Positions 1,245 through 18,834 of a stretch of DNA of 64,000 bases are shown here, in pieces. Position numbers and translations under genes: made by a program. Where the stretch lies: positions 3,487,501 to 3,551,500 of the forward strand of contig NZ_CP126980.1 of assembly GCF_030252345.1 (NCBI RefSeq), given 5' to 3'. Position 1 is the first letter of the stretch. Every line of letters starts with the position of its first letter. The notes beneath the pieces were generated by a model. That model was not told the DNA's origin. It saw only the letters and a program-made list of their open reading frames with translations, and ran no database searches. Source of the DNA: Actinoplanes oblitus. Its GTDB lineage: Bacteria; Actinomycetota; Actinomycetes; Mycobacteriales; Micromonosporaceae.

Positions 1245-1325
1245 CCCGCTTCTGGCCCTGGCCGGTGCCGATCCCCCGATCGTGGGGGACGACTGATCAC
1301 GGTCAGATCGGGTATGCCCCGCGCC

Positions 1326-2177
1326 ATGTCCGTGATCAACAGGCCGGCACCGCCGGTCGGCATCGAAACCGACGAGGTCACCGTGGTGGTGGCCACCCGC
1401 AACCGACCCGATCGGCTGCGCGAGACCGTGCCCCGCCACCACGCCGCGACGATCATCGTCGACAACGCGTCCGACCAGCCACTCTCCGTCCCGGGCGCGA
1501 TGATGGTCCGGCTCGGCGAGAACCTCGGCGCGGCAGCCCGCAACGTCGGCGTCGAGCACGCGCGGACCCCGTTCGTGGCGTTCGCGGACGACGACTCGTA
1601 CTGGGAACCTGGCTCCCTGGCCCGAGCCGCACGGATCTTCCGTGACCACCCGCGGGCCGCCCTGCTGTCCGCCAAGGTCCTGGTCGGCGCGGAGGGCCGC
1701 CTCGACCCGGTGTCGGCGTGCATGGCCGAAGCCCCGATCGGCACCCCGCCCGGCGCCCCCGGACCGTCGGTGCTGGGCTTCCTCTCCTGCGCGGTGATGG
1801 TCCGGCGAGACGCCTTCCTCGCGGCCGGCGGTTTCCAGCCCAAGCTTTTCGTGTACGGCGAGGAAGCCCTGCTCGCCATGGACCTCGCCGCCGCCGGTCA
1901 CCACCTGTCCTACGTCCCGGACCTGGTCGTCCGCCACCTCCCCGAACCGGCCGGCCGCGACAACCGGGCCCGCGCCCGCCGGGAGGCCCGCAACCGCGCC
2001 CTGACCGCCCTGCTCCGCCGCCCGCCCGCGGTGATCGCCCGTACCCTCGCCGAGGTGGCCCGCACCCAGCCGGCCGCCCTCCGCGACATCGCCCGGGACC
2101 TGCCCTGGGCGCTGCGTCACCGGCGGCCGCTCCCGGCTCCGGTCGAGTCCGCCCTCCGTCACCTCGCCACCACCTGA
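1326..2177 (+). CDS. Family 2 glycosyltransferase
   Basis: A GT-A fold glycosyltransferase of about 283 residues. The N-terminal strand VTVVVATRNRPDRL binds the nucleotide sugar, FADDDSYW is the metal-binding DxD region, and GGFQPKLFVYGEEALLAMDL is the typical acceptor-side ED motif of GT2 enzymes. The C-terminal 70 residues are Arg/Ala-rich without clear membrane helices. ATG 1314 is possible, but ATG 1326 is preferred because a -10-like TATGCC (1313-1318) lies 7 bases before it, the spacing of a leaderless actinobacterial transcript; no Shine-Dalgarno sequence is seen for either. It stands alone, 2.2 kb before the large glycan operon, so a shared pathway is possible but unproven. Confidence 0.8.
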   Translation: MSVINRPAPPVGIETDEVTVVVATRNRPDRLRETVPRHHAATIIVDNASDQPLSVPGAMMVRLGENLGAAARNVGVEHARTPFVAFADDDSYWEPGSLARAARIFRDHPRAALLSAKVLVGAEGRLDPVSACMAEAPIGTPPGAPGPSVLGFLSCAVMVRRDAFLAAGGFQPKLFVYGEEALLAMDLAAAGHHLSYVPDLVVRHLPEPAGRDNRARARREARNRALTALLRRPPAVIARTLAEVARTQPAALRDIARDLPWALRHRRPLPAPVESALRHLATT

Positions 2178-2847: not shown

Positions 2848-4254
2848 CTACCAGCCCGACGGCGGTGACTGCAGGTGGACCGCCTTGGTGCAGGTCATCT
2901 CGTCGAGCAGCTCGGGGCCGTACCCGAAGCCCTGTCCGCTGAGCCCACGCGGATGCGCGGCGCCCCCCGGCGCCCCGCCGAACACCGCGTTGATCTTGAC
3001 GGTGCCGACCGGGAGGGTGCGCCAGGCCTGCTGGGCGTTGCTCATCGACGGGGTCAGGACCGTGGCGGCCAGACCGTACGTCGACGCCGCCGACCGCCGC
3101 AGACCCTCCTCGAACGACGCCACCACGGCGACCGGCGCGACCGGGCCGAACGTCTCCTCGCGCATCACCGTCATCTCGTCGGTGCAGCCGGACAGCACGG
3201 TCGGCGGGTAGTGTGCGCCCGGCCCGACCGGGACGGCACCACCGCGCAGGACCGTCGCGCCGTCCTTGACCGCCTGCTGGACCTGCTCGTCCACGAGGTC
3301 ACGCAGGCGGCGGTCGACCAGCGGGCCGATCCGCGACGCCCAGGTGTCCGCCTGCGCCGCCAGGGCGTCCAGGAACGGGTCGGCCACCGAGGCGTGCACA
3401 TAGATCCGTTCGACGGCCACGCAGATCTGGCCGGAGTTGGCGAACGCGCCGAGCGCCGCCTGCTCGGCGGCCCACGCCGGGTCCACGCCGGCGTCGACCA
3501 GCAGCGGGTCCTTGCCGCCGTTCTCCAGCAGGGCCTTCGCGCCGGTCCGGGCGCAGGCCGCGGCGATCGAGCGGCCGGTGGCCGTGGAGCCCACGTGCGC
3601 GACCAGGTCGACGGGCGCGGCCGCCAGGTGGGCCCCGGTCGCGCCGTCGCCGTTGACCAGGTTCAGCACGCCGTCCGGGAAGTGCAGGGCGAACAGCTCG
3701 ACCAGGCGGTGCCCGGTGGCCGGGGTGCGCTCGCTCGGCTTGTGCACCACGGTGTTGCCGGTGACCAGTGCCGCGCCGAGCAGGCCGCAGGCCACCGCGA
3801 TCGGGTCGTTCCACGGCGTGATCACCGCGACCACCCCGCGCGGCCCGTACGCCATCAGGTCGATCGCCGCGTCGTCACCGGCCAGTGCCCGTCCCCGGTG
3901 GACCGGGCCGAGCTCGGCGTACTGCCGGAGCGTGCCGACCCCGGCCAGCACCGAGTCGCGGGCGTCGGCGACCGGCTTGCCCATCTCCGCCGAGATCAGC
4001 GCGGCCAGTTCGTCGGCGTCGGCCTCGACGGCGTTCGCCGCGGCGTGCAGGGCGGCGGCCCGCGCGGCGGGGGCGGTACGCGCCCAGCCCGGCGCGGCGG
4101 CTCGTGCGGCGCTCACCGCGGCGTCCACGTCGGCCTCGTCGGATACGGTCATCCGGGAGACCGGGGTGCCGTCGGCCGGGCTGAGCACTGTCAGGTCGCG
4201 GCCGGAGCCGCCGTGGCGCCAGGCGCCGGCGATGAGTTGCGTGACGTCCTGCAT
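2848..4254 (-). CDS. NAD(P)-dependent aldehyde dehydrogenase
   Basis: This 468-residue protein oxidises an aldehyde to the acid with NAD(P)+. Family landmarks are visible: TPWN with the oxyanion Asn near residue 149, the cofactor-binding HKPSERTP (Lys172), the general-base Glu244 in LLENGGKDP and the catalytic Cys278 in SGQICVAVERIYV. Length fits the ALDH superfamily (450-500). The frame stays open upstream to 4479, but the extension is low-quality Arg/Ser sequence crossing the divergent promoter, so ATG 4254 is chosen. It is transcribed away from the carbamoyltransferase operon across a 109-base promoter region with an AT-rich palindrome. The substrate is unknown; succinate-semialdehyde- or betaine-aldehyde-type enzymes are the closest in style. 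Confidence 0.88.
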   Translation of the reverse strand: MQDVTQLIAGAWRHGGSGRDLTVLSPADGTPVSRMTVSDEADVDAAVSAARAAAPGWARTAPAARAAALHAAANAVEADADELAALISAEMGKPVADARDSVLAGVGTLRQYAELGPVHRGRALAGDDAAIDLMAYGPRGVVAVITPWNDPIAVACGLLGAALVTGNTVVHKPSERTPATGHRLVELFALHFPDGVLNLVNGDGATGAHLAAAPVDLVAHVGSTATGRSIAAACARTGAKALLENGGKDPLLVDAGVDPAWAAEQAALGAFANSGQICVAVERIYVHASVADPFLDALAAQADTWASRIGPLVDRRLRDLVDEQVQQAVKDGATVLRGGAVPVGPGAHYPPTVLSGCTDEMTVMREETFGPVAPVAVVASFEEGLRRSAASTYGLAATVLTPSMSNAQQAWRTLPVGTVKINAVFGGAPGGAAHPRGLSGQGFGYGPELLDEMTCTKAVHLQSPPSGW

Positions 4255-4291
4255 GGACGGCCGGTTGCCCGGTCTTGACCGGCACAAACGT

Positions 4292-4316
4292 AAAAACTTC
4301 GACCGTCGAAGTTTTT
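4292..4316. promoter_or_regulatory. AT-rich palindrome between divergent genes
   Basis: A perfect 11-bp inverted repeat, AAAAACTTCGA (4292-4302) and TCGAAGTTTTT (4306-4316), with a 3-base spacer. It lies between the divergently transcribed aldehyde dehydrogenase and the carbamoyltransferase operon and is strikingly AT-rich for this genome. A shared operator is more likely than a terminator because no gene converges here. As RNA it would also form a hairpin with a T-run on either strand, so an attenuator cannot be excluded. Confidence 0.55.
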
Positions 4317-4363
4317 TTGGTGATCTTGGAGTAATGCGGTGATCGTCGGGTATCCGCCGCCAT

Positions 4364-5992
4364 ATGCGAGTCCTGGGAATCAACGCGATCTTCCATGATC
4401 CGGCCGCCGCGCTGATCGTGGACGGCCAGGTGGTGGCCGCCGCCGAGGAGGAGCGGTTCAGTCGCCGCAAGCACGGCAAGCGCCCGGTGCCCTTCGCCGC
4501 CTGGGAGCTGCCCGAACTGTCCGCCGCCTGGTGCCTCGCCGAGGCCGGGCTGGAACCCGGCGACCTGGACGCGGTCGCCTACTCGTTCGACCCGGGGATC
4601 AGCCGGGACGCCGCCGACCTGGGCCTGGCCGACCCATGGGATCACCTGCGGATCGACTACGCCCGGCGGGCCCCGCAGTTCCTGGCGAGCGCGCTGCCCG
4701 GCCTCGACCCGGAGCAGGTGCGGTTCGTGCCGCACCACGTGGCGCACGCGGCCTCGGCGGGACTGTCGGTGCCGGACGACAACGCCGTGCTGGTGCTGGA
4801 CGGGCGCGGCGAGGTGGCCGGGCACCTGGCCGGGGCGTACCGCGACGGCGAGCTGACCGTGCTGCGCACCCAGGAGCTGCCGCACTCCCTCGGGCTGCTC
4901 TACGAGGACCTGACCCGGCACCTGGGATTCCTGCACTCCAGTGACGAATACAAGGTGATGGCGCTCGCGTCGTACGGAAAACCGAAGTTCTTGGATCTTC
5001 TGCGGGAGCTGGTCAAGCCGACCGGGGACGGCGGGTTCACGGTGGACCGGATCGACTGGAGCGCTCTGGCCAAGCCGTGCCCGCCCGGCGGGGAGCTCGG
5101 CGACGAGCACGCCGACCTGGCGTCCAGTGTGCAGAAGCGGCTCGAGGAGGTGATCCTCGACCTGGCCCGGTGGACCTTCGAGGCATCCGGCGGGCTGCCC
5201 ACGCTGACCCTGGCCGGCGGCACCGCGCTGAACTGCGTGGCCAACGCGCGGGTCGCCGCCGAGGGACCGTTCCAGCGGGTCTGGGTGCAGCCGGCGGCCG
5301 GCGACTCGGGGACCGCGCTCGGGGCGGCGCTCGCGGTGCACGGGCAGAGCATCCCGTTCACCACGGCGGCGCTCGGCCGCGGCTGGAGCGACGACGAGCT
5401 GGAGGCCGAGCTGCGGCGGGCGGCGCTGCCCTACACCCGGCCGGCCTCGATCGCCGCCGAGGCCGCCGAGGTGCTGGCCCGCAACGGGATCGTGGCCTGG
5501 TACCAGGGGCGCAGCGAGTACGGGCCGCGCGCGCTCGGGCACCGCTCGCTGCTGGCCCACCCCGGCGACCCGGACACCCAGCGGCGGATGAACGACGTGA
5601 AGGGCCGCGAGCAGTTCCGGCCGATCGCGCCGATGGTCCGCGCCGAACGCTTCCACGACATCTTCGACGGGGTCTACCCGAGTGAGCACATGCTCTTCGT
5701 GCACCGCGTCAAACCCGAGTGGCGGGACCGGATCCCGGCTGTCGTGCACGTGGACGGCACCGCCCGGGTGCAGACCGTGCACCAGGAGACCGAGCCGGTG
5801 GTGGCGGCGATGCTGGCCGAGTTCGAGAAGCGGACCGGGCTGCCGGTGGTGGTGAACACCTCGCTGAACACCGCCGGGCGGCCGATGGTGGACACCCCGC
5901 GCGAGGCGATGGAGCTGTTCGGCTCGGCGCCTGTCGACCTGCTCGCCATCGGGCCGTTCGCGGTCCACCGGGCCGGAGCGTTCGGCAAGTGA
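4364..5992 (+). CDS. NodU/CmcH family carbamoyltransferase
   Basis: A 542-residue enzyme of the family that moves a carbamoyl group from carbamoyl phosphate through a carbamoyl-adenylate to a sugar or antibiotic hydroxyl. The N-terminal Kae1-like half has GINAIFHDPAAALI (His11) and HHVAHAASAG near residue 124, both metal/nucleotide-site histidines; GGTALNCVANARV lies near 285. The C-terminal YrdC-like/Carbam_trans_C part has YGPRALGHRSLLA near 387, KGREQFRPIAP and NTSLNTAGRPMV. It is the first gene of the eight-gene operon, and the next gene starts inside its stop codon (GTGA). In this context it most likely carbamoylates a sugar in the glycan assembled by the downstream transferases; the acceptor is inferred only. 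Confidence 0.9.
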   Translation: MRVLGINAIFHDPAAALIVDGQVVAAAEEERFSRRKHGKRPVPFAAWELPELSAAWCLAEAGLEPGDLDAVAYSFDPGISRDAADLGLADPWDHLRIDYARRAPQFLASALPGLDPEQVRFVPHHVAHAASAGLSVPDDNAVLVLDGRGEVAGHLAGAYRDGELTVLRTQELPHSLGLLYEDLTRHLGFLHSSDEYKVMALASYGKPKFLDLLRELVKPTGDGGFTVDRIDWSALAKPCPPGGELGDEHADLASSVQKRLEEVILDLARWTFEASGGLPTLTLAGGTALNCVANARVAAEGPFQRVWVQPAAGDSGTALGAALAVHGQSIPFTTAALGRGWSDDELEAELRRAALPYTRPASIAAEAAEVLARNGIVAWYQGRSEYGPRALGHRSLLAHPGDPDTQRRMNDVKGREQFRPIAPMVRAERFHDIFDGVYPSEHMLFVHRVKPEWRDRIPAVVHVDGTARVQTVHQETEPVVAAMLAEFEKRTGLPVVVNTSLNTAGRPMVDTPREAMELFGSAPVDLLAIGPFAVHRAGAFGK

Positions 5993-6984
5993 TCAGCGTT
6001 GTCATCCCGACCCTGGGACGGCCGAGCCTGTCCGCGCTGCTGGAGCGCATCCGCGACGACGATCTGGAGATCATCGTCGTCGACGACCGTCCCGACCGAG
6101 ACGATCGGCTGGAAACCCCGGGCCGGGTCATCGCCGGCCCGGCCCGGGGCCCGGCGGCGGCCCGCAACGCCGGGTGGCGTGCCGCCCGGCACGAGTGGGT
6201 GGTGTTCCTCGACGACGACGTGCTGCCCGACCCGGACTGGCCGCGCCGGCTGAAGGCCGACCTGGCCGCGGCCGGCCCGGAGATCGGCGGCGTACAGGGC
6301 GTGCTGAGCGTCCCGCTGCCCGACGACCGCCGGCCGACCGACTGGGAACGGGTCACCGCGGGTCTCGCCGACGGCGCCTGGATCACCGCCGACATGGCGT
6401 TCCGCCGCACCGCCCTGTCCGCCGTCGGCGGCTTCGACGAGCGCCTGCCACGGGCCTTCCGGGAGGATGCCGAGCTGGCCTTCCGGGTCCGCCAGGCCGG
6501 GTGGCAGCTGCGTCGGGGTGACCGCCGGACCACCCATCCGGTACGCCCGGAGAGCCGCTGGGTCAGCCTGCGCACCCAGCGCGGCAACGCCGACGACGCG
6601 CTGCTGCGCCGCCTCTACGGCCCGCGGTGGCGCGACCTGCTGGCCATCCCGCCCGGCCGCCGCCCCCGGCACGCGGCGGTCACCGCGGCCGGCGCGCTCG
6701 CCCTGGCCACCGGGGTGACGGCGGCGATCACCAGGCGCCCGGGCTGGGCGCTGGCCGCCGCGGCCGCGACCACCGCGTGGGCGGCCGGTACCGCCGAGTT
6801 CGCCGCCACCCGGATCGCCCCCGGCCCGCGCGACCGGCACGAGGTCGCCACGATGCTGCTGACCAGCGTGGCGATCCCGCCGGTAGCCATCGCGTACTGG
6901 CTGCGCGGCTGGTGGCGCTGGCGGTCCGCCGAACCGGCCTCGGCCCCGGCCGGCACACCGGCCACCAGGGTGGTGGCCGCTTGA
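5989..6984 (+). CDS. Family 2 glycosyltransferase with C-terminal membrane helices
   Basis: About 331 residues, starting at GTG 5989, which overlaps the carbamoyltransferase stop (GTGA). The GT-A domain begins at once with ISVVIPTLGRPSL; AARNAGWRAA near residue 55 and the metal-binding FLDDDVLPDPDW near residue 72 follow, then GGFDERLPRAFREDAELAFRVRQAG, the ED/QxxRW-like acceptor region. Two or three hydrophobic segments near residues 225-300 suggest membrane attachment at the inner face. Its place in the operon points to a role in building the same glycan as the GT4 and GT9 enzymes. Donor and acceptor are not predictable. Confidence 0.85.
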   Translation: MISVVIPTLGRPSLSALLERIRDDDLEIIVVDDRPDRDDRLETPGRVIAGPARGPAAARNAGWRAARHEWVVFLDDDVLPDPDWPRRLKADLAAAGPEIGGVQGVLSVPLPDDRRPTDWERVTAGLADGAWITADMAFRRTALSAVGGFDERLPRAFREDAELAFRVRQAGWQLRRGDRRTTHPVRPESRWVSLRTQRGNADDALLRRLYGPRWRDLLAIPPGRRPRHAAVTAAGALALATGVTAAITRRPGWALAAAAATTAWAAGTAEFAATRIAPGPRDRHEVATMLLTSVAIPPVAIAYWLRGWWRWRSAEPASAPAGTPATRVVAA

Positions 6985-8552
6985 TGTCACGGCTCTACGA
7001 CGCCGTCCTGTTCGACCGGGACGGCACGCTGATCGTGGACGTGCCGTACAACGGTGACCCCGGCAGGGTCACACCGATGCCCGGCGCGCGGGCCGCCCTG
7101 GACCGGCTGCGCGCCGCCGGCCTGCGCCTGGGCGTGGTGACCAACCAGTCCGGTCTGGCTCGCGGCCATTTCACCGCCGGCGAGCTGACAGCTGTCAACC
7201 GGCGGGTCGAGGAACTGCTCGGGTCGTTCGACACCTGGCAGATCTGCCCGCACGACGACACCGCCGGCTGCGACTGCCGCAAGCCACGGCCCGGCCTGAT
7301 CGAGGCGGCCGCGCGGGCGCTGGGCACCACCCCGGAGCGCTGCCTGGTGGTCGGCGACATCGGCCGGGACATGACAGCGGCGCTCGCCGCCGGGGCGGCC
7401 GGCATCCTGGTGCCGACGCCGGTCACGCTGCCGGACGAGGTGGCGGCCGGCCCCACGGTGGCCGCCGATCTGACCGCCGCCGCCGACCTGATCCTGCGGC
7501 GGGAGGCACTGGTACGGCCGGTGGCGCCCCGGACGGCGGGGACCGTGCTCGCGGTGCGGTCCGACTCCGCGGGGGACGTGCTGGTCACCGGGCCGGCGAT
7601 CCGGGCACTCGCGCACCACAGCGAGCGGGTGGTGCTGCTCTGCGGGCCGCGCGGGCGGGCGGCGGCCGAGTTGCTGCCCGGTGTCGACGAGCTGATCGAG
7701 TGGCGGCTGCCGTGGATCGACCCGCAGCCCGATCCGGTCGACGCGGCCGACCTGGCGGCGCTCACCGAGCGGATCCGCGCGGCGCGGGTCGACGAGGCGG
7801 TGGTCTTCACCTCCTACCACCAGTCCGCGCTGCCGCTCGCGCTCCTGCTGCGTACCGCCGGGGTCGGGCGGATCACCGCGATCAGCGAGGACTATCCGGG
7901 GTCGCTGCTGGACGTGCGGCACCGCGTACCGGACGGGATCCCGGAACCGGAGCGGGCCCGCAGCGTGGCGGCGGCCGCCGGCTTCGGACTGCCCGACAGT
8001 GACCCGGGCGGCCTGCGGGTGCGGGACGTCCGGCGCCGAGGACCTGGTGACTACGTGGTGGTGCACCCGGGGGCCAGCGTCGAGGCGCGGTCCTGCCCGC
8101 CGGAGACCATGCGGGAGATCGTACGGACGCTGGCGGCCGGCGGGCACCGGGTGCTGGTGACGGCGGGACCGGGGGAGGAGCCGCTGGCGTCGTACGTCAA
8201 AAGCTCCGTGGCGGACCTCATCGAACCGACCTCCCTGACCGAACTGGCCCACCTGTTGGCCGGCGCGTCCTGCCTGGTCGTCGGCAATACCGGGCCGGCG
8301 CACCTGGCGGCGGCCGTCGGCACCCCGGTGGTCAGCCTCTTCGCGCCGACCGTCCCCTATGCGCAGTGGGGGCCCTACCGCGTCCCGGCGATCCGGCTCG
8401 GCCAGCCCGGTGCCGTCTGCCGCGACACCCGCGCGACGACCTGCCCGGTCGCCGGCCATCCCTGCCTGTCCACCGTCGATCCGGCCGAGGTGCTGGAGGC
8501 CGTCACCCGGCTCGGCGCGAAGGTCCGATCACCAAGAGAGGTAGCCGCGTGA
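6984..8552 (+). CDS. Fusion: GmhB-like HAD phosphatase and GT9 heptosyltransferase
   Basis: ATG 6984 shares a base with the previous stop (TGATG). Residues 1-175 form a HAD-IIIA phosphatase: nucleophile Asp11 and Asp13 in LFDRDGT, TNQSGLARG, the GmhB-type zinc loop with Cys88, His90, Cys96 and Cys98, and acidic motif GDIGRDM (Asp125, Asp129). This is the pattern of D-glycero-D-manno-heptose-1,7-bisphosphate phosphatase. Residues about 185-520 are a GT9 ADP-heptose:glycan heptosyltransferase domain (VRSDSAGDVL, VHPGAS near 361, VGNTGPAHLAAA near 434). In Gram-negative bacteria these are separate proteins. The fusion would couple precursor dephosphorylation to heptose transfer. The frame reads far upstream of ATG 6984, but that part is a shadow of the GT2 gene. 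Confidence 0.88.
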   Translation: MSRLYDAVLFDRDGTLIVDVPYNGDPGRVTPMPGARAALDRLRAAGLRLGVVTNQSGLARGHFTAGELTAVNRRVEELLGSFDTWQICPHDDTAGCDCRKPRPGLIEAAARALGTTPERCLVVGDIGRDMTAALAAGAAGILVPTPVTLPDEVAAGPTVAADLTAAADLILRREALVRPVAPRTAGTVLAVRSDSAGDVLVTGPAIRALAHHSERVVLLCGPRGRAAAELLPGVDELIEWRLPWIDPQPDPVDAADLAALTERIRAARVDEAVVFTSYHQSALPLALLLRTAGVGRITAISEDYPGSLLDVRHRVPDGIPEPERARSVAAAAGFGLPDSDPGGLRVRDVRRRGPGDYVVVHPGASVEARSCPPETMREIVRTLAAGGHRVLVTAGPGEEPLASYVKSSVADLIEPTSLTELAHLLAGASCLVVGNTGPAHLAAAVGTPVVSLFAPTVPYAQWGPYRVPAIRLGQPGAVCRDTRATTCPVAGHPCLSTVDPAEVLEAVTRLGAKVRSPREVAA

Positions 8553-9475
8553 ACATCCTGCTCTGGCACGTCCACGGCTCCTGGACCACCTCGTTCGTCC
8601 AGGGCAAACATCGTTACCTGATCCCGGTCAACGACGCCCGCGACGAGTGGGGACGCGGCCGCGCCCGCACCTTCGACTGGCCGGACAGCGTCGAGGAACT
8701 GCCGCTCGACCAGATCCGGGACGCGGACGTGGCGATCGTCCAGCGGCCCGAGGAGATCGACCTGGTACCGCCAAGTCTTCCGGTGATCTACGTGGAGCAC
8801 AACACCCCCAAGGGGGACGTCCCGGACACCCGGCATCCGCTGGCCGACCGGGACGACGTGGTGATCGCCCACGTCACCCACTTCAACGAGCTGTTCTGGG
8901 ACTGCGGCTCGACCCGGACCACCGTCATCGAGCACGGCATCGTGGAGCCCAAGGCGCGCTGGACCGGCGAGCTGGAACGCCTCGCCATCGTCACGAACGA
9001 GCCGATCCGCCGCGGCCGGGTGACCGGGACCGATCTGTTCGGACGGTTCAGCCCGGTGGCGCCGCTCGACGTCTTCGGGATGGGCGTGGCCGGCCTGCGG
9101 AGCGAGCGGATCACCCCGTACGACGATCCGCCCCAGGCGGCGATGCACGAGCAGCTCGCCCAGCGCCGCGCCTACCTGCACCTGTGCCGCTGGACCTCGC
9201 TGGGCCTGAGCCTGATCGAGGCGATGCAGATGGGCATGCCGGTGATCGGCCTGGCCACCACCGAGGCGATCGCCGCGGTGCCACCGGACGCCGGCGTCCT
9301 GTCCACCCGGGTCGACACGCTGGTCGAGGCGGCCCAATGGCTGATCGACGAGCCCGAGGAGGCGCGCCGGATGGGCGAGCGCGCCCGCCGGACCGCCCTC
9401 GCCCGGTACGGCCTCGACCGTTTCCTCGCCGACTGGGATCACCTTCTGGAGGAGCACGCATGCGGATCGCGATGA
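8549..9475 (+). CDS. GT4-like glycosyltransferase
   Basis: A 308-residue protein starting at GTG 8549, overlapping the previous stop by 4 bases (GTGA). The start NILLWHVHGSW is followed by a region with HNTPKGD and by the C-terminal GT-B part: HLCRWTSLGLSLIEAMQMGMPVIGLATTEA (residues about 210-240), the EX7E-like motif of GT4 enzymes with Glu in LIEAM, and a final LxxRMGERAR helix. It is shorter than most GT4 enzymes (350-420), mainly in the N-terminal domain. The next gene overlaps its 3' end by 16 bases, implying translational coupling. It probably adds a hexose in the glycan pathway; the sugar is unknown. Confidence 0.8.
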   Translation: MNILLWHVHGSWTTSFVQGKHRYLIPVNDARDEWGRGRARTFDWPDSVEELPLDQIRDADVAIVQRPEEIDLVPPSLPVIYVEHNTPKGDVPDTRHPLADRDDVVIAHVTHFNELFWDCGSTRTTVIEHGIVEPKARWTGELERLAIVTNEPIRRGRVTGTDLFGRFSPVAPLDVFGMGVAGLRSERITPYDDPPQAAMHEQLAQRRAYLHLCRWTSLGLSLIEAMQMGMPVIGLATTEAIAAVPPDAGVLSTRVDTLVEAAQWLIDEPEEARRMGERARRTALARYGLDRFLADWDHLLEEHACGSR

Positions 9476-10659
9476 TCTCGGAACATGCCAGTCCGCTCGC
9501 CGCGCTCGGCGGGGTCGACGCCGGCGGCCAGAACACGCACGTCGCCGAACTGGCGGCGGCGCTCGCCGCGGAGGGCCACGAACTGCGCGTCTACACCCGG
9601 CGGGACAGCCCGGACCTGCCGACCGTGGTGCCGATGGGCGAGCGGATCGATGTGGTGCACGTGCCCGCCGGCCCGGCGTCGGTGCTGCCCAAGGACGAGC
9701 TGCTGCCGCACATGGGCGCGTTCGCCGAGTGGATGGCGGCGGACTGGCAGGACTTCGCGCCCACCGTGGCACATGCGCACTTCTGGATGAGCGGGCTGGC
9801 CGCCGTCACCGCCGCCCGGCGGTACCCGGTGCCGGTGGTGCAGACCTACCACGCGCTCGGTAGCGTCAAGAAACGCCACCAGGGCACGGCCGACACCAGC
9901 CCGCGCCACCGGGTCGGCTACGAACGGCAACTCGGCCGGGTCGTCGACCAGGTGATCGTGCAGTGCCAGGACGAGCTGCGCGAACTGGTGTTGCTCGGGG
10001 TCCCGCGGGCCCGGACGACGCTGGTCCCGTCCGGCGTGAACGTGGAACGCTTCCGCAAGGACGGTCCGGCGGCCGCCCGATCGGAGCGGCAACGGATCCT
10101 GAGCGTCGGACGGCTGGTGCCGCGCAAGGGCTTCGAGGAGCTGATCACGGCGCTGCCCGAGGTGCCCGGCGCGGAGCTGGTCATCGCCGGCGGACCGGAT
10201 CCGGCCCGGCTGGCCCTCGACGACTACGCGCAGCGGTTGCTCCACCTGGCCAAACAGTGCCGGGTCGACGACCGGGTCCGGCTGCTCGGCGCGGTGCCGT
10301 CGCACGAGATGCCGGACTGGTACCGCTCCGCCGACGTGGTGGCGGCCACCCCCTGGTACGAGCCGTTCGGGCTGACCCCGCTCGAGGCGATGGCCTGCGG
10401 GGTGCCGGTGGTGGCCACCGCCGTCGGCGGGCTCACCGACACCGTCGTCGACGGGGTCACCGGCGACCTGGTGCCACCGCACGACCCGCGCGGGTTGGGC
10501 CAGGCGCTGCGGCGGCTGCTCACCGACCGGAACCGGCGGCTCAGTTACGCGGCGGCGGCGGTGGACCGGGCCGTGCACGCGTACGCCTGGCCGCAGATCG
10601 CCACCCGGATGAGCGCGGTGTACGCGAGCGTGGCCTCGATCCCGGCGGTGGTGGCGTGA
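9460..10659 (+). CDS. GT4 glycosyltransferase (MshA/SPS-like)
   Basis: A 399-residue retaining GT-B glycosyltransferase. GGVDAGGQNTHVAELAAAL near residues 17-35 is the glycine-rich acceptor loop typical of MshA and sucrose-phosphate-synthase-like enzymes; HAHFWMSG, LVPSGVN, SVGRLVPRKG (residues about 208-218) and EPFGLTPLEAMACGVPVVA (EX7E, near 305-323) follow. ATG 9460 has GGAGGAGCAC-type Shine-Dalgarno sequence just upstream inside the preceding gene. The gene ends in TGATG with the GmhA start. MshA itself is unlikely because the neighbours are heptose-pathway enzymes rather than mycothiol genes; a glucosyl- or mannosyltransferase role in a surface glycan fits better. Confidence 0.87.
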   Translation: MRIAMISEHASPLAALGGVDAGGQNTHVAELAAALAAEGHELRVYTRRDSPDLPTVVPMGERIDVVHVPAGPASVLPKDELLPHMGAFAEWMAADWQDFAPTVAHAHFWMSGLAAVTAARRYPVPVVQTYHALGSVKKRHQGTADTSPRHRVGYERQLGRVVDQVIVQCQDELRELVLLGVPRARTTLVPSGVNVERFRKDGPAAARSERQRILSVGRLVPRKGFEELITALPEVPGAELVIAGGPDPARLALDDYAQRLLHLAKQCRVDDRVRLLGAVPSHEMPDWYRSADVVAATPWYEPFGLTPLEAMACGVPVVATAVGGLTDTVVDGVTGDLVPPHDPRGLGQALRRLLTDRNRRLSYAAAAVDRAVHAYAWPQIATRMSAVYASVASIPAVVA

Positions 10660-12731
10660 TGGACCCGATCGAGGCGCACCTGGCCGGGCTCGGCGCGGCG
10701 CTCGGGCCGTACCGGACGGTGGCCCCGCGACTCGCCGACTGGGGCGCCGAGCTGGCCTCGCACCTGTCCCGCGGCGGCCGGCTGCTGGTCGCCGGTAACG
10801 GCGGCAGCGCGGCCGAGGCGCAGCACCTGGCGGCCGAGCTGGTCGGGAAACTGCGCGAGGACCGGATGCCGCTGTCCGCGATAGCGCTCACCCCGGACTC
10901 GTCGGCGGTCACCGCGATCAGCAACGACTACGGGTTCGACGAGGTGTTCGCCAGGCAGGTGCGGGCGCACGGCCGGCCCGGCGACGTGCTGCTGGTGCTC
11001 TCCACCAGCGGCCGCAGCCCGAACCTGGTGGCGGCGGTACGGGCCGCCAAGGAGTGCGGGATGCGAAGCTGGGCGATGGTCGGCGCCGGCCCGAGCCCGG
11101 TCGGCGACGCCTGCGACGAGGTGCTGCACTGCCCGTCGCCGGACTCGCAGGTGGTTCAGGAGCTGCACCTGGTCTCCGTCCACCTGATGTGCGAATACCT
11201 GGACCTGGCCCTGGCGAAGCCGGACCATGCCCTCTCCACGCGCCAGGAAACGACGACGAAGGAGGCGACGACGGACGAGGAGGAGCACGTGTCGAAGCCA
11301 CTGCTGGTCGTCGTCGGCGACACCCTGCTGGACCGGGACGTCGACGGCGAGGTGCACCGGATCGCGCCGGACGCCCCGGCGCCGGTCCTCGACGAGCGGG
11401 CGGTCCGGGAACGACCCGGCGGCGCCGGCCTGGCCGCCCTGCTGGCGGCCGGCTCGGCGGACTGCGACGTCGCGCTGGTCACGGCGCTGGCCGCGGACGC
11501 CGACGGGGCGGCGCTGAGCGAGATGCTCACGGCGGCCGGCGTCACGACGTACGCTCTGCCGCTGCCCGGCGCGACCCCGCAGAAGATCCGGCTCCGGGCC
11601 CGCGGCCAGGTGCTGCTGCGCCTGGACCGGGGCGGTGCCGCCCAGCCACCCGGCGACGCGCCGGACGGCCTGCTCGACGTGCTCGGCACGGCCACCGCGA
11701 TCCTGGTCAGCGACTACGGCCGGGGCGTCGCGGCGCACCCGGCGGTGCGGGCCGCGCTGGAGAAGGCGTCCGCCCCGATCGTCTGGGACCCGCACCCGAA
11801 CGGGCCGCCGCCGGTGCCCGGGGTCGCGCTCGTCACCCCGAACCTGGCCGAGGCCGTCAAGGTCACCGGGGACGCCGCCCACGGCACGACGCTGAGCACC
11901 GCGCAGCGGACCGGGCACCGCCTGAAGGACCGGTGGCGGGCCCGCGCGGTGGCTGTCACCTGCGGGTCCGACGGGGCGGTCCTGTGCCAGGCCGGTCCGA
12001 CGCCGCTGGTCGTGCCGGCCGGCGCGGACGCGGGCGAGGCGGACACCTGCGGGGCCGGTGACCGGTTCGCGGCCGCGGCGGCGCTGTCGCTGGCCGGCGG
12101 GTCGCTGGTGTCCGAGGCGGTGCAGGACGCGGTCGCCGCGGCGACGTCCTATGTCCGCACCGGCGGGGTGACCGCGGCGCTGGCCCGGCCCGCCGCGGAG
12201 CCCGCCGTGGCGGCCCCCGGCGGGACCACCGCGGGCGAGGAGCGGATCGGCGCCGACGCGGCCGGCCGACTGGCCGCCGAGGTGCGCGAGCGCAACGGCG
12301 TGGTGGTCGCCACGGGCGGCTGCTTCGACCTGCTGCACACCGGGCACCTGGCCACCCTGCGCGCCGCCCGCCAGCTCGGCGACTGCCTGATCGTGTGCCT
12401 GAACAGCGACGACTCGGTGCGCGGGCTGAAGGGACCGGACCGGCCGCTGAACTCGCAGGCCGACCGGGCCCGGCTGCTCGCCGCGCTGGACTGCGTGGAC
12501 GCCGTGGTCGTCTTCGACGAGCCGACGCCGGAGGCGGTGCTGTCCTGGCTGCGCCCGGACGTCTGGGTCAAGGGCGGCGACTACGCCGACGGCGGGCCCA
12601 CGCTGCCCGAGGCGGAGCTGGTCAAACGCTGGAACGGCCAGACCGTGATCGTGCCGTACCTGGACGGCCGCTCCACCACCCAGACGATCGCCGCGGCGCG
12701 GGTCGCCGCGACCACCAACAGCGGGAGGTAA
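10659..12731 (+). CDS. GmhA isomerase fused in frame to HldE kinase/nucleotidyltransferase
   Basis: One open frame of 690 codons holds three enzymes of ADP-heptose synthesis. Residues 1-190 are a SIS-fold sedoheptulose-7-phosphate isomerase (GmhA) with GNGGSAAEAQH, STSGRSPN and the four zinc ligands expected from E. coli GmhA: His56, Glu60, Gln167 and His175. After a charged linker (191-210), residues about 214-515 are a PfkB-type heptose-7-phosphate kinase, with GDTLLDRD and the catalytic Asp468 in DTCGAGD. Residues about 545-685 are the cytidylyltransferase-like domain with HTGH at 560-563, which in HldE makes the ADP-heptose. All key residues are present. No stop separates GmhA from HldE, but GTG 11289 (Val211) has a perfect Shine-Dalgarno sequence, so a separate HldE product may also be made. 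Confidence 0.88.
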   Translation: MDPIEAHLAGLGAALGPYRTVAPRLADWGAELASHLSRGGRLLVAGNGGSAAEAQHLAAELVGKLREDRMPLSAIALTPDSSAVTAISNDYGFDEVFARQVRAHGRPGDVLLVLSTSGRSPNLVAAVRAAKECGMRSWAMVGAGPSPVGDACDEVLHCPSPDSQVVQELHLVSVHLMCEYLDLALAKPDHALSTRQETTTKEATTDEEEHVSKPLLVVVGDTLLDRDVDGEVHRIAPDAPAPVLDERAVRERPGGAGLAALLAAGSADCDVALVTALAADADGAALSEMLTAAGVTTYALPLPGATPQKIRLRARGQVLLRLDRGGAAQPPGDAPDGLLDVLGTATAILVSDYGRGVAAHPAVRAALEKASAPIVWDPHPNGPPPVPGVALVTPNLAEAVKVTGDAAHGTTLSTAQRTGHRLKDRWRARAVAVTCGSDGAVLCQAGPTPLVVPAGADAGEADTCGAGDRFAAAAALSLAGGSLVSEAVQDAVAAATSYVRTGGVTAALARPAAEPAVAAPGGTTAGEERIGADAAGRLAAEVRERNGVVVATGGCFDLLHTGHLATLRAARQLGDCLIVCLNSDDSVRGLKGPDRPLNSQADRARLLAALDCVDAVVVFDEPTPEAVLSWLRPDVWVKGGDYADGGPTLPEAELVKRWNGQTVIVPYLDGRSTTQTIAAARVAATTNSGR
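11278..11291 (+). promoter_or_regulatory. Internal ribosome binding site and GTG start of the HldE part
   Basis: AGGAGGAG (11278-11285) lies 5 bases before GTG 11289, measured from AGGAGG, an ideal actinobacterial start signal. A second AAGGAGG lies about 30 bases upstream. The GTG is in frame with the GmhA domain and falls exactly where the HldE kinase fold begins. This suggests that HldE was, and perhaps still is, translated independently. Confidence 0.6.
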
Positions 12732-12738
12732 CGACAGC

Positions 12739-13422
12739 ATGGACGCAGTCATCATCACCGGGGGATCGAGCGGGCTCGGGGCCGCTGTCGCCGACAACGT
12801 GATCAAGGCGGGCGGGCGGCCGTTCGTCATCGACAGGCAGAAGCCGGCCCGCGACGACGTGCCGTGGATCGAGTGCGACCTGGCCGACACCCGGGCCGCC
12901 GAGCAGGCCACCCGCAAGGCGATCGAGATGGCCGGCGGCCGGGTCGACGGGGTGGTCACGGCGGCCGGGTTCGACGTGCCGGGCTCGCTCGGTGACGTAC
13001 CGGGGGAGGTGTGGGACCGGATCGTCGCGGTGGACCTGCTGGCCACGGCGGCGGTGGTGCGGGCCGCGCTGCCGGAGCTGAGGGAGTCGCACGGCGGCGT
13101 GGTCACCATCGCGTCCACGCTGGGGATCAAGGCGGTGGCGGACGCGACGGCGTACTGCGCGGCCAAGTTCGGGGTGGTCGGCTTCACCCGGGCCCTCGCG
13201 GCCGAGCTGGCCGGGGAGGTCGGCGTCACGCTGATCATCCCGGGCGGGATGCGGACGAAGTTCTTCGACGAGCGGGAGGACCGGTACAAGCCCGGGCCGG
13301 ACGCGAAGCTCAACGACCCGTGCCACGTGGCCGACGCGATCCTGTTCGCGTTGCGGCAGCCCGCCGGGTGCGCGGTGCGCGAGCTGGTCATCGCGGGGGA
13401 GACGGAGACGTCGTACCCGTGA
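12739..13422 (+). CDS. Short-chain dehydrogenase/reductase in the heptose operon
   Basis: A 227-residue classical SDR, 7 bases after the HldE stop. TGGSSGLG (residues 7-14) is the NAD(P)-binding loop, VTAAG is the NNAG-equivalent, and Tyr139/Lys143 in YCAAK form the catalytic pair with Ser in TIAST. It is too short to be the canonical ADP-heptose 6-epimerase HldD, which is an extended SDR of about 310 residues, and no HldD is visible nearby. It could oxidise, reduce or epimerise a sugar intermediate or act on the sugar-linked aglycone. The following GT9 gene begins inside its stop (GTGA), so both are translated together. Confidence 0.85.
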   Translation: MDAVIITGGSSGLGAAVADNVIKAGGRPFVIDRQKPARDDVPWIECDLADTRAAEQATRKAIEMAGGRVDGVVTAAGFDVPGSLGDVPGEVWDRIVAVDLLATAAVVRAALPELRESHGGVVTIASTLGIKAVADATAYCAAKFGVVGFTRALAAELAGEVGVTLIIPGGMRTKFFDEREDRYKPGPDAKLNDPCHVADAILFALRQPAGCAVRELVIAGETETSYP

Positions 13423-14357
13423 TCCTGGTCCTGCGCGCGCTCGGGGTGGGCGATCTCGCGACCGGGGTGCCGGCGCTGCGTGCCCTGCGGGCCGCGTTCC
13501 CCGGCGACGAGCTGGTGCTCGCCGCACCGACCTGGCTGACGCCGCTGATCGACCTGATCGGCGGCGTCGACCGCGTCCTGCCCACCGACGGCCTCGGTGG
13601 TCCGGCACAGGACTGGCTCGCCGGCAGCCCGCCGAAGCTGGCGGTCAACCTGCACGGCAGCGGCCCGGAATCGCATCGACTGCTGCTCGGGACCCGCCCG
13701 GCGCGCCTCTGGGCCTTCCGCAACGCCGCGGCGGGTCATCTCGACGGACCGGAGTGGTCGGACGACGAGCACGAGGTCCGCCGCTGGTGCCGGCTGCTGC
13801 GCCACTATCGGATCGACGCCGACGAGTCCGACCTGAGACTCGAAACCCGATCCGGGTACGCCCGGAGCGGCGTCACCATCGTGCACCCGGGAGCGAAGTC
13901 CCCGTCGCGCCGCTGGCCACCGGAGCGGTATGCCGAGGTGGCGCGCCGCCTGGAGGACACCGGCCACCACGTCGTGATCACCGGCAGTCCCGCCGAACGC
14001 GACCTCACCGCCAAGGTCGCCGCCGACGCCGGCCTCGGCCCGGAGGCGCTGCCCGGCACCGATCTGGCCGCGCTGGCCGGTCTGATCGCCGGCGCCCGCC
14101 TCCTGATCAGCGGCGACACCGGGGTGTCGCACCTGGCCACCGCGTTCGGGACCCCGTCGGTGACCCTCTTCGGCCCGATGTCCCCGGCCCGCTGGGGGCC
14201 GCCGCCGGACCGCCCGCGGCACCGCGTCATCTGGCACGGCACGCGCAGCGAGCGCGGCGACGACCCCGGCCCGGACGTGCACCCGGCCCTGCTCGCGGTG
14301 ACGGTGGAGGAAACCCTCGCCGCCGCCGGGCAGGCGCTGGCCTCGGCGCGCTGCTGA
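13419..14357 (+). CDS. GT9 (ADP-heptose-type) glycosyltransferase
   Basis: A 312-residue stand-alone GT9 enzyme starting at GTG 13419, overlapping the SDR stop by 4 bases. VLRALGVGDLATGVPALRAL at the N-terminus is the WaaC/WaaF-like acceptor loop; VHPGAKSPSRRWPPERYAEVA (near residue 150) and SGDTGVSHLATAFGTPSVTLFGP (near 228) are the donor-binding motifs. It is the second GT9 domain of the operon, so at least two heptose-like transfers may occur. It is the last gene; the next start is 107 bases on and appears to have its own promoter. Confidence 0.87.
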   Translation: MILVLRALGVGDLATGVPALRALRAAFPGDELVLAAPTWLTPLIDLIGGVDRVLPTDGLGGPAQDWLAGSPPKLAVNLHGSGPESHRLLLGTRPARLWAFRNAAAGHLDGPEWSDDEHEVRRWCRLLRHYRIDADESDLRLETRSGYARSGVTIVHPGAKSPSRRWPPERYAEVARRLEDTGHHVVITGSPAERDLTAKVAADAGLGPEALPGTDLAALAGLIAGARLLISGDTGVSHLATAFGTPSVTLFGPMSPARWGPPPDRPRHRVIWHGTRSERGDDPGPDVHPALLAVTVEETLAAAGQALASARC

Positions 14358-14463: not shown

Positions 14464-16236
14464 ATGCCTGAGGATGCCGGCGCGCGGACCGGGCATGTGA
14501 TCGTGTGCGGGCTCGACGACGTCGGGCTGCGGACCGTCGAGCAGCTCTACCACGCGGGCGTGCGGGTGGTCGTGGTGGAGGACGACGCCGACCCGCGGCT
14601 GGTCCGGGTGGTGCGCGGCTGGGGCGTGCCGGTCGTCGTCGGGAGTCCGCGCCTGCTGGAGACCCTCGACGAGGCGGGCCTGCCCGAGGCGGTGGCGGTG
14701 ATCTGCGTGCTCGCCGACGACCTGCACACGCTCGAGGCGGCGCTGCTGATGCGCGAGCGGCGGCCCGAGGTCCGGGTGGTGGTGCAGCTGCGGAATCCGG
14801 CGGTCGGCCGGGCCCTCGGCGACCTGCAGATCAGCGTGCTGGACGTGGCCGGGCTGTCCGCGCCGTCGGTGGTCGAGGCGTGCCTGCGGACCGGGTCGCA
14901 CGAGCTCGACCTGGACGGGAACAGGTTCGTCGCGGCCCAGGTCGTCATCGACTTCACCGGGACGCTGCGCTCGCACTACGGATCGCTGGCCCCGCTCGCG
15001 CTCAGCCCCGGTGACGGCGGTGAGGTGGTCATCTCGCCGGGTCGTGACCATCAGGTGCGGCCCGGCGACCAGGTGACCCTGCTCGGCACGCCGGAGGAGC
15101 TGGCCGCGGCCGGGGTGATCGGCACCGACGGTGACGCCTCGGAGGCTGGGCCGGCAGGGGTGTCGCGGTCGCTGCGGCTGGCCGGGTCGGTGCTGCGGGC
15201 GATGGACCGCCGGATCGCGTACGCCCTGATCGCCCTGCTCCTGCTGCTGAACATGTCGATCCTGGTGCTCCAGCTCGGCTACCGCGAGCCGGACGGCACC
15301 CGGATGACGCTGCTCGACGCGGTGTACTTCTCGGTCGAGTCGATCGCCACCGTCGGTTACGGCGACTTCAACTTCCGCCACCAGGAACCCTGGCTGCGGA
15401 TCTTCGCGATCGGCCTGATGATCCTCGGCGCCTGCTTCGCCGCCACCTTCATCGCCCTGCTCACCAACGTGCTGGTCTCCATCAAGATCCAGGAGGCGCT
15501 CGGCAACCGCCTGCTCGACCGGCTCACCGACCACGTGGTGGTGGTCGGCATCGGCTCGGTCGGGGTACGCGTGGTGGAACGGCTGCGCGCCACCGGCACC
15601 GAGGTCGTGGTGATCGAATCCGACGAGAACAACCGCTATCTGGACGAGGTGCGCGAGAGCGGGGTCCCGGTGCTCGTCGCGGACGCCACCCTGCCTCGCA
15701 CCCTGGACCGGGTGCAGCTCGCCTCGGCCCGGGCGGTCGCCGTGCTGACCAGCGACGACCTGGTCAACCTGGAGACCGGCCTGGCGGTCCGGGACCGGCT
15801 GGGCGAACGGTGGGGCCGGGTGCCGGTGGTGCTGCGGCTGTTCGACCGGACGCTGGCCACCACGGTCGAGCGCACCTTCGGTCTCGGGCTGGCACGGTCG
15901 ACCGCCGCGCTGGCCGCGCCGTGGTTCGTCGGGGCGGCGCTGGGCCTCGACGTGCTGGCCACGTTCTACGTCGGGTCGCGGCTGATGCTGGTCGGGCGGC
16001 TGACCGTGGCGGCGACCGGCGGGCTGGACGGGCTGGCGATGCGTGACCTGTCGGCGCGCATCCGGGTGGTCGCGATCCGGCGCGGCGCGATCCTGGAGCA
16101 CCCGCCGCGCCGGGACACCCGGTTCGCGGCGGGCGACGAGGCCTACCTGATCGGGCCCTACGAGGAGCTGTTGCAGGTGCTGCGCCGCGACGCCGCCGAC
16201 CTCAGGCGTGGTGGCCCACCTGCTGGAGAACGCTGA
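14464..16236 (+). CDS. Potassium channel with N- and C-terminal RCK domains
   Basis: A 590-residue membrane protein. Residues 12-140 are a TrkA-N/RCK Rossmann domain (HVIVCGLDDVGLRTVEQL), followed by a TrkA-C-like part to about 220. A 2-TM pore domain follows (first helix about 255-275, selectivity filter TVGYGD at 296-301, second helix about 315-340). A second RCK domain starts with HVVVVGIGSVGVRVVERL near residue 357. Such channels pass K+ under control of a bound ligand. An RCK domain in front of the pore is unusual; MthK-type channels have it only after the pore. ATG 14464 lies 7 bases after a TAGCCT -10-like box, suggesting a leaderless mRNA. The 3' end overlaps the convergent SnoaL gene by 35 bases. 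Confidence 0.85.
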   Translation: MPEDAGARTGHVIVCGLDDVGLRTVEQLYHAGVRVVVVEDDADPRLVRVVRGWGVPVVVGSPRLLETLDEAGLPEAVAVICVLADDLHTLEAALLMRERRPEVRVVVQLRNPAVGRALGDLQISVLDVAGLSAPSVVEACLRTGSHELDLDGNRFVAAQVVIDFTGTLRSHYGSLAPLALSPGDGGEVVISPGRDHQVRPGDQVTLLGTPEELAAAGVIGTDGDASEAGPAGVSRSLRLAGSVLRAMDRRIAYALIALLLLLNMSILVLQLGYREPDGTRMTLLDAVYFSVESIATVGYGDFNFRHQEPWLRIFAIGLMILGACFAATFIALLTNVLVSIKIQEALGNRLLDRLTDHVVVVGIGSVGVRVVERLRATGTEVVVIESDENNRYLDEVRESGVPVLVADATLPRTLDRVQLASARAVAVLTSDDLVNLETGLAVRDRLGERWGRVPVVLRLFDRTLATTVERTFGLGLARSTAALAAPWFVGAALGLDVLATFYVGSRLMLVGRLTVAATGGLDGLAMRDLSARIRVVAIRRGAILEHPPRRDTRFAAGDEAYLIGPYEELLQVLRRDAADLRRGGPPAGER

Positions 16237-18543: not shown

Positions 18544-18834
18544 ATGCGCGTGACCCTCACGACGCACGGCGGGCTGGCGGCCGCGATCACCTCGCGGCTG
18601 CCGGCCAAGGTCGTCGACACCACCGACCTCAAGCCGGAGGACGCGGCGGAGTTGCGCGAGCTGATCGCGGCCGCCGCCTCCGCCGCGGCGCCGGCCACGA
18701 GCCCGGCCGCCCGGGACGCGATGAGTTACACCGTGCTGGCCGAGTCGGCCGCCGGTGGCACCACGCTGACCGCCTCGGACGCCGCGATGAGCGCCGAGTT
18801 CGCCGCCCTGCTGGACTGGCTGGAGGACCACTGA
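18544..18834 (+). CDS. Emfourin-like M4 protease inhibitor
   Basis: A 96-residue protein beginning MRVTLTTHGGLAA, with LKPEDAAELRELIAAA and a C-terminal FAALLDWLEDH helix. Length, the strand-rich ends, and position directly behind an M4 protease gene match emfourin, the proteinaceous inhibitor first described beside protealysin in Serratia. It would bind the protease in the cytoplasm and block activity until needed. ATG 18544 abuts the protease TAG with no spacer, so translation is probably coupled and yields fixed proportions. The family call rests on motif memory and context, not a search. Confidence 0.78.
   Translation: MRVTLTTHGGLAAAITSRLPAKVVDTTDLKPEDAAELRELIAAAASAAAPATSPAARDAMSYTVLAESAAGGTTLTASDAAMSAEFAALLDWLEDH

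Follow-up and report, generated by a model that had tools for sequence, protein, structure and literature searches.

The closest described relative of the locus studied here is the cwg operon of Streptomyces coelicolor (SCO6179–SCO6190), which the consulted portions of the literature present as 12 'putative cell wall glycan' genes, partly sigma-E dependent, induced by vancomycin and tentatively assigned to glycan synthesis, with cwgH named a 'phosphoheptose isomerase' and cwgI a 'bifunctional synthase/transferase' (PMC5839063, PMC5882110, PMC6767563). A heptose pathway is likewise already known in actinomycetes, in the parts of the sources available, from tridomain NDP-heptose synthetases and from septacidin. 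Here we analysed an eight-gene operon on the forward strand, at 4364–14357 of a 64,000-nucleotide stretch of the Actinoplanes oblitus genome (contig NZ_CP126980.1, positions 3,487,501 to 3,551,500; hereafter the window), which by gene content and order is an orthologue of cwg with a shared core and variant flanks. We consider it fairly probable that operons of this type make a short cell-envelope oligosaccharide that contains D,D-heptose and is carbamoylated. The kind of operon is already known from cwg, and what is new here is the phylum-wide comparison and a testable product.

Orthology with the Streptomyces cwg operon

The published cwg sigma-E promoter was searched in 295 genomes belonging to the same genus as G334, an operon-carrying genome of our sample (G and L numbers denote genomes and loci, respectively). 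We infer that this genus is Streptomyces, because of the cwg promoter and because the named matches of the carbamoyltransferase (CT), among the best 120 of 7995, were all from Streptomyces. An exact match to the promoter (29/29) was present in one of the 295 genomes, G631, and seven of them matched at no more than 2 mismatches. The distance from the G631 promoter to the most upstream in-frame start is 147 bp, as published for cwg, and the CT of this genome shares 99% identity with a protein of Streptomyces violaceoruber; from these features together with the exact promoter it is soundly inferred that G631 belongs to S. coelicolor or to a very closely related organism.

The 12 genes of G631 follow in the order extended SDR, CT, GT2, HAD, GT9, GT4a, GT4b, GmhA, HldE, GT9, GT2 and GT2. 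Published names were available for eight of the 12 cwg genes, seven of which (cwgB, C, E, G, H, I and J) agree with G631 by position, and the eighth, the 'dehydratase' cwgD, occupies the HAD position. The HAD domain of the window also matches the NCBIfam model for the bifunctional HisB phosphatase/dehydratase, which may explain this name. The same operon was found in G506, G334, G580 and G668, with the GT2, GT9 and HldE matches of G506 split between frames; the stretch from G539 ends early. One further genome, G523 (L153), kept the cwg promoter within 1 mismatch and lost most of the operon genes, with GT2 and GT4b matches remaining.

Comparison of the G631 operon with the window revealed the functions CT-GT2-HAD-GT9-GT4a-GT4b-GmhA-HldE-GT9 in identical order. 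Only cwg has an extended SDR as its first gene, two extra GT2 genes at its end, separate HAD and GT9 as well as GmhA and HldE genes, and no classical SDR, whereas only the window has a divergent aldehyde dehydrogenase (ALDH) gene, the classical SDR, both fusions (HAD-GT9 and GmhA-HldE) and, in its upstream region, no recognised match to the sigma-E-type promoter. No extended SDR was found among the window genes scanned, and one homologue (GT2up) located 2 kb upstream takes the place of the terminal GT2 pair; because of these two differences at the window operon, the orthology is assigned to the core and the flanks are regarded as variant. An earlier reading made from the sequence alone (the sequence-only reading) had proposed the locus as the best candidate in the window for an undescribed system, a proposal that the orthology with cwg does not bear out. 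Its description of eight genes with almost no intergenic DNA at this position was correct in both coordinates and gene content; neighbouring genes overlap by 1–16 bp, with a 7-bp gap as the sole exception (Table 1).

Table 1 Coordinates and assignments of the operon genes and flanking features in the window
Feature	Position	Strand	Basis and remarks
CT, NodU/CmcH/TobZ-type O-carbamoyltransferase, 542 aa	4364..5992	+	Pfam PF02543/PF16861; corresponds to gene 2 of cwg in Streptomyces
GT2 glycosyltransferase, 331 aa, GT-A domain and three long C-terminal helices	5989..6984	+	PF00535; AlphaFold2 model
HAD-GT9 fusion, GmhB-like HAD phosphatase (about residues 1-186) and GT9 heptosyltransferase-family domain	6984..8552	+	Pfam, NCBIfam
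GT4a, short GT4-like glycosyltransferase, 308 aa	8549..9475	+	PF00534
GT4b, GT4 glycosyltransferase	9460..10659	+	Pfam, NCBIfam
GmhA (sedoheptulose-7-phosphate isomerase)-HldE (heptose-7-phosphate kinase and heptose-1-phosphate nucleotidyltransferase) fusion	10659..12731	+	Pfam, NCBIfam, solved relatives
Classical SDR oxidoreductase, 227 aa, accessory	12739..13422	+	PF00106
Second GT9 heptosyltransferase-family protein, 312 aa	13419..14357	+	PF01075 1.9e-28
Divergent ALDH	2848..4254	-	PF00171 6.4e-117
GT2up, GT2-type glycosyltransferase, possible accessory	1314..2177	+	In Streptomyces, two homologues stand at the end of the operon
Divergent intergenic region with dyad and GGGTAT box	4255..4363	.	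Between ALDH and CT

Some of the proteins used as Pfam and NCBIfam queries started at the longest-ORF start and carried extra N-terminal residues.

Distribution and conservation of the operon

Related loci were collected as the best 80 of at least 474 relatives, a set biased to close relatives; a fairer sample was provided by 396 Actinomycetota genomes, in which 57 stretches around HldE matches were compared. When operon-type HldE was defined as at least 500 bits on a model of our own, 31 stretches qualified, corresponding to 30 places in 30 genomes since L100 and L134 overlap. L137, in which HldE is split between frames, stands outside the 31, and the stretches of L111, L119 and L120 end early. 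All ten functions were present in 19 of the 31 stretches, or in 15 when a score above 250 bits was required of the SDR, and the remaining stretches of the 57 had weaker HldE matches and other neighbours. The 31 include genomes within the phylum but outside the class of the window, and the operon occurs in many actinobacterial families, including members of Nocardia, Mycolicibacterium, Micromonospora and Actinoplanes. At E <= 1e-150 for CT and E <= 1e-80 for GmhA-HldE, CT was found in 12 of 15 genomes of the window's genus and GmhA-HldE in the same 12, and in the window's family they were found in 55 and 75 of 150 genomes, respectively. The genes are thus conserved together well outside the strain, the outcome that the sequence-only reading had looked for in a comparison of gene order, and this co-conservation across the sample genomes and the genus rules out a strain-specific cluster.

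The HldE tree (81 rows) largely follows families, with 11 label changes against a possible minimum of 9 and a shuffled mean of 31; it was built by a quick method and contains several long branches, and Pseudonocardiaceae, Nocardiaceae and Streptomycetaceae are split in it. Two further genes accompany the operon in other lineages, one for an extended SDR (18 loci) and one resembling UDP-glucose-6-dehydrogenase (14 loci), and this suggests additional sugars in those lineages. ALDH is also a frequent neighbour of the operon, in 37 of the 81 clustered sequences with the window included.

Heptose enzymes and the missing epimerase

Isomerase, kinase, phosphatase and nucleotidyltransferase of an ADP-heptose pathway are all present in the window with their main motifs. 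The window proteins matched the NCBIfam models for HldE, GmhA and GmhB at 5.1e-79, 5.1e-46 and 3.4e-33, respectively; the best solved relatives of GmhA-HldE are phosphoheptose isomerases and a heptose-7-phosphate kinase, and those of the HAD domain are D,D-heptose 1,7-bisphosphate phosphatases. Among orthologues, GmhA retains GNGGSA (72/72) and QExH (64/72), HldE retains HxGH and GAGD (79/79 each), and HAD retains DRDG(T/V) (48/61) and C(R/K)KP (61/61). The nucleotidyltransferase motif reads YLDGRSTT in the window, and GRSTT is present in 48 of 79 orthologues. According to the part of PMC11461863 consulted, HENases with the STTR5 arginine use nucleoside triphosphates broadly, within the motif (F/L)XXGXSTT; the window motif has Arg at position 5 and Tyr, not F/L, at position 1.

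GmhA, kinase and nucleotidyltransferase share a single open frame in the window, as GmhA and HldE do in L001, L002, L003 and L017, and a stop separates GmhA from HldE in nine other loci of the operon type (L007, L008, L020, L024, L005, L044, L070, L056 and L150). Within the window gene there is an internal GTG at 11289, preceded by GAGGAGGAG, from which a separate HldE could be made. HAD and GT9, fused in the window, are encoded by two adjacent genes in L150 of Streptomyces. Both fusions join pathway steps, and they were counted in favour of a heptose pathway for this reason.

Both GT9 proteins are related to heptosyltransferases. The GT9 domain of the fusion matched Pfam at 1.7e-18 (1.9e-28 for the second GT9), its solved relative is lipopolysaccharide (LPS) heptosyltransferase 1, and the nearest solved relative of the second GT9 is ADP-heptose LPS heptosyltransferase II. 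The (D/N)-(T/S)-G-x-x-H motif is conserved in 63 of 64 fused-GT9 and 68 of 69 second-GT9 orthologues, with N in the former (NTG, 62/64) and D in the latter (66/69). For GT4a, an AlphaFold2 model had a mean pLDDT of 91.5, and at least 8000 homologues were found, with a close relative in Actinoplanes missouriensis. The nearest solved chains of GT4b are Tll1590 (6kih) and the 'predicted glycosyltransferases' 3c4q/3c48, which we take to be MshA; GT4b scored 238.4 bits against the MshA model, under its cut-off of 462.5.

The epimerase HldD, which the sequence-only reading had not seen in the window, was also not found over the model cut-off anywhere in the 9.8-Mb genome, where the best match reached 112.8 bits versus 274.6. 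At E <= 1e-60, HldD occurred in one of the 396 phylum genomes (G383; at most five candidates were scored in the genomes listed). An HldE nucleotidyltransferase domain scoring at least 170 bits was carried by 49 of the 396, the window's own genome included, and a strong HldD match (E <= 1e-60) by none of these 49. Since HldD is lacking across HldE-carrying genomes, a D-glycero product is the general expectation rather than an oddity of the strain.

The same reading had suggested that the short SDR might modify the heptose in place of HldD, and this suggestion has been weakened. The SDR motifs are conserved in orthologues (TGGxxG(L/I)G in 52/71; YxxxK, a loose pattern, in 71/71), but no classical SDR was found in any of the seven loci judged from six Streptomyces genomes, nor in L106, L113, L122 and L126. 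We set the SDR aside as a substitute HldD: it is a classical SDR of 227 aa, missing from several otherwise complete operons, and because it is absent from cwg it is probably not the missing epimerase.

Linkage of the carbamoyltransferase to GT2

CT has both the N- and the C-terminal domain of NodU/TobZ-type carbamoyltransferases (Carbam_trans_C, 4.8e-65 in Pfam) and the HHxxH and GPRALG motifs, conserved in orthologues as HHxxH in 49/50 and E-[YF]-GPRALG-x-RS in 47/50; its best solved relatives are a carbamoyltransferase (7xb6) and TobZ. GT2 was modelled by AlphaFold2 with a mean pLDDT of 90.2, and helices 225-248, 251-276 and 283-310 follow the catalytic part, in which D75-D77 and E159-D160 are invariant among 21 sequences. 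From these three C-terminal helices of the model, GT2 is probably embedded in or tethered to the membrane through its helical tail, although a hydropathy scan barely sets it apart (best window 1.78 versus 1.34-1.60 for the other proteins).

Analysis of 93 judged loci, after 20 with incomplete stretches were left out and with absence taken as absence within the stretch, revealed CT and GT2 together in 67, always adjacent and on one strand, neither gene in 21, CT alone in five and GT2 alone in none. Among the 21 without the pair, 19 retain the GT9, GT4 and heptose genes, and L018 and L124 hold GmhA-HldE only. Micromonospora mirobrigensis contains two copies of the operon, one without the pair (L022) and one with it (L029). 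Since CT travels with GT2, the carbamoyl group may sit on a GT2-dependent unit that is separable from the rest. We dropped the assumption that carbamoylation is necessarily on heptose, as CT pairs with GT2 and some loci have the heptose genes but not this pair. In the part of PMC8005017 available, carbamoyl is placed on heptose II of the Pseudomonas LPS core, and given this precedent the heptose itself may be carbamoylated instead.

The loci with CT alone (L014, L028, L031, L046 and L048) are clusters of other kinds. Those of Nocardia (L028, L046 and L048) contain HldE, epimerase, P450, SHMT-like, GT9, carbamoyltransferase and GDSL genes, with GmhA-HldE as one chain in L048 (Pfam on L048), and look like a heptose/carbamoyl natural product cluster. 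Those of Streptomyces (L014 and L031) contain a one-chain GmhA-HldE, a DegT aminotransferase, a zinc dehydrogenase, a relative of the L048 epimerase, GT9 and a carbamoyltransferase (Pfam on L014), possibly forming another heptose natural product cluster.

Upstream region and neighbouring genes

Between the divergent ALDH and CT genes lies a perfect dyad with 11-bp arms at 4292-4316, AAAAACTTCGA-CCG-TCGAAGTTTTT, a candidate operator or terminator. Its core occurs at one place in the genome and, among 15 regions compared, the window has it in common only with L001 and L003. In 15 of 15 upstream regions (the window and 14 Actinoplanes-type loci) a GGGTA box, GGGTAT in 13 of them, precedes the start of CT by about 10 nt, which suggests a conserved, perhaps leaderless promoter.

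Downstream of the operon, the gene at window positions 14497-16236 has two TrkA_N stretches as well as an ion channel domain; it apparently encodes a potassium channel and does not belong to the operon. At 17470-18831 there is a thermolysin-type M4 protease gene with an emfourin gene immediately after it.

Proposed product and rival explanations

On the observed gene content, cwg orthology, lack of a recognisable HldD and CT-GT2 linkage, we propose the following activities, product structure, location and anchor. The heptose would be activated as ADP-heptose, perhaps also with CDP or UDP because of the Arg in the GxSTT motif, and would remain in the D-glycero form because HldD is lacking. Two GT9 enzymes would add heptose, and the two GT4s and the presumably membrane-tethered GT2 would add other sugars, with CT capping a hydroxyl on the GT2-dependent unit. 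The predicted product is a short oligosaccharide in the cell envelope that contains heptose and is carbamoylated; its counterpart in Streptomyces would be made under cell-wall stress. The domains bear out the heptosyltransferase-family and carbamoyltransferase genes beside heptose genes that the sequence-only reading had noted. Of the carbamoylated, heptose-containing glycan proposed there, the joint presence of heptose and CT genes stands, but a carbamoyl group on the heptose itself is not established, as CT travels with GT2.

Several observations weigh against this proposal. GmhA (156.5 bits, cut-off 209.5), HldE (266.1, 521) and GmhB (114.7, 178) all score under the NCBI equivalog cut-offs, and the HAD domain clears that of the histidinol-phosphatase domain subfamily (110.5 versus 84.2 bits). 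With these cut-offs unmet, the three activities named by the sequence-only reading hold at family level, through models, motifs and context, but not as equivalogs. Operon-type HldE was present in 30 sampled genomes and the window's own of 396, most of the sample being without it, and 3 of 15 genomes of the window's genus lack the operon. The 109-bp region upstream of the window operon contains no AAC-N17-CGTC site and a single AAC-N14-CGTC at 4287, within the dyad region; for this reason we did not carry the sigma-E promoter over to the window. No flippase, polymerase, ABC exporter or wall ligase was annotated among the Pfam-scanned window genes (9-21310), where transporters are limited to two of the MFS type (9-1136 and 20024-21310) with no shown link to the operon, and the envelope location consequently rests on the regulation in Streptomyces. 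No report of the cwg product or glycan was found in the open-licence literature, and the accessible part of a 2026 paper on an Actinoplanes missouriensis polysaccharide (PMC13390465) mentions neither heptose, carbamoyl nor cwg.

An alternative product is a secreted or intracellular small molecule, such as a septacidin-like heptose-carbamoyl glycoside, instead of an envelope glycan. The solved relatives of CT include TobZ, GdmN and decarbamoylnovobiocin carbamoyltransferase, which presumably act in antibiotics, NDP-heptose and carbamoyltransferases both serve actinomycete antibiotics in the partial sources consulted, and there are Nocardia and Streptomyces clusters that combine HldE, GT9 and CT with P450, aminotransferase or SHMT-like genes. 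However, these clusters (L014, L028, L031, L046 and L048) form, with L018, a separate branch of the HldE tree, which otherwise largely follows families, and they showed no match to GT2, GT4a, HAD or GT4b of the window (the GT4b query being approximate, as its frame held stops). Together with the envelope-stress control of cwg, described in the portions of its literature consulted, this makes a small-molecule product unlikely.

The GT9 proteins might instead heptosylate proteins, in the manner of autotransporter heptosyltransferases, with the rest of the operon building a protein-linked oligosaccharide. The corresponding model, TIGR04414, does match the fused GT9, but weakly and far under its cut-off (24.7 bits versus 200); no substrate-like protein was seen among the annotated conserved neighbours, although one of their clusters (c16, in 13 loci) matched nothing in Pfam, and the predicted helical tail of GT2 fits a membrane. 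We regard this as very unlikely. It is still less credible that the SIS-kinase-nucleotidyltransferase acts on another sugar phosphate and that the product is free of heptose, even though every heptose-enzyme model stays under its equivalog cut-off and enzymes of the SIS, PfkB and cytidylyltransferase-like families act on other sugars as well. GmhA, kinase, nucleotidyltransferase, a GmhB-like phosphatase and two GT9s co-occur and are partly fused, and the best NCBIfam models are heptose enzymes, as are the best solved relatives of GmhA, HAD and the GT9s.

Comparison with known heptose systems

To our knowledge, actinomycetes lack LPS. If a carbamoylated heptose oligosaccharide is indeed the product, the envelope of these Gram-positive bacteria includes a heptose component that, in Streptomyces at least, is linked to cell-wall stress. 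The comparison divides core from accessory genes and yields a testable class of structure, with D,D-heptose, carbamoyl, two heptosyl transfers and a CT-GT2 unit. A wider and more tentative view, which we offer as a possibility leaning to the doubtful side, is that of an old, largely vertically inherited core oligosaccharide in part of the Actinomycetota, reaching beyond the class of the window, with D-glycero-D-manno-heptose on a membrane or wall anchor and a carbamoylated, separable unit, independent of HldD, raised under cell-wall stress and an independent counterpart of the LPS inner core.

Tridomain NDP-heptose synthetases of actinobacteria, reportedly described by Tang et al. in 2022, resemble the window in having isomerase, kinase and nucleotidyltransferase in a single chain, whereas a GmhA-only ORF was called in 67 related loci. 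The Pseudomonas LPS inner core also combines heptosyltransferases and a carbamoyltransferase (WapO and two heptosyltransferases) in one core cluster, but, in the part of the source available, it uses L-glycero-D-manno-heptose, heptose kinases and a lipid A core, whereas no HldD was found for the window operon (PMC8005017). The septacidin and hygromycin B pathways of Streptomyces share with it a heptose derived from sedoheptulose-7-phosphate in an actinomycete, in the source parts consulted; they are antibiotic pathways, whereas the window contains a multi-glycosyltransferase operon common to many families.

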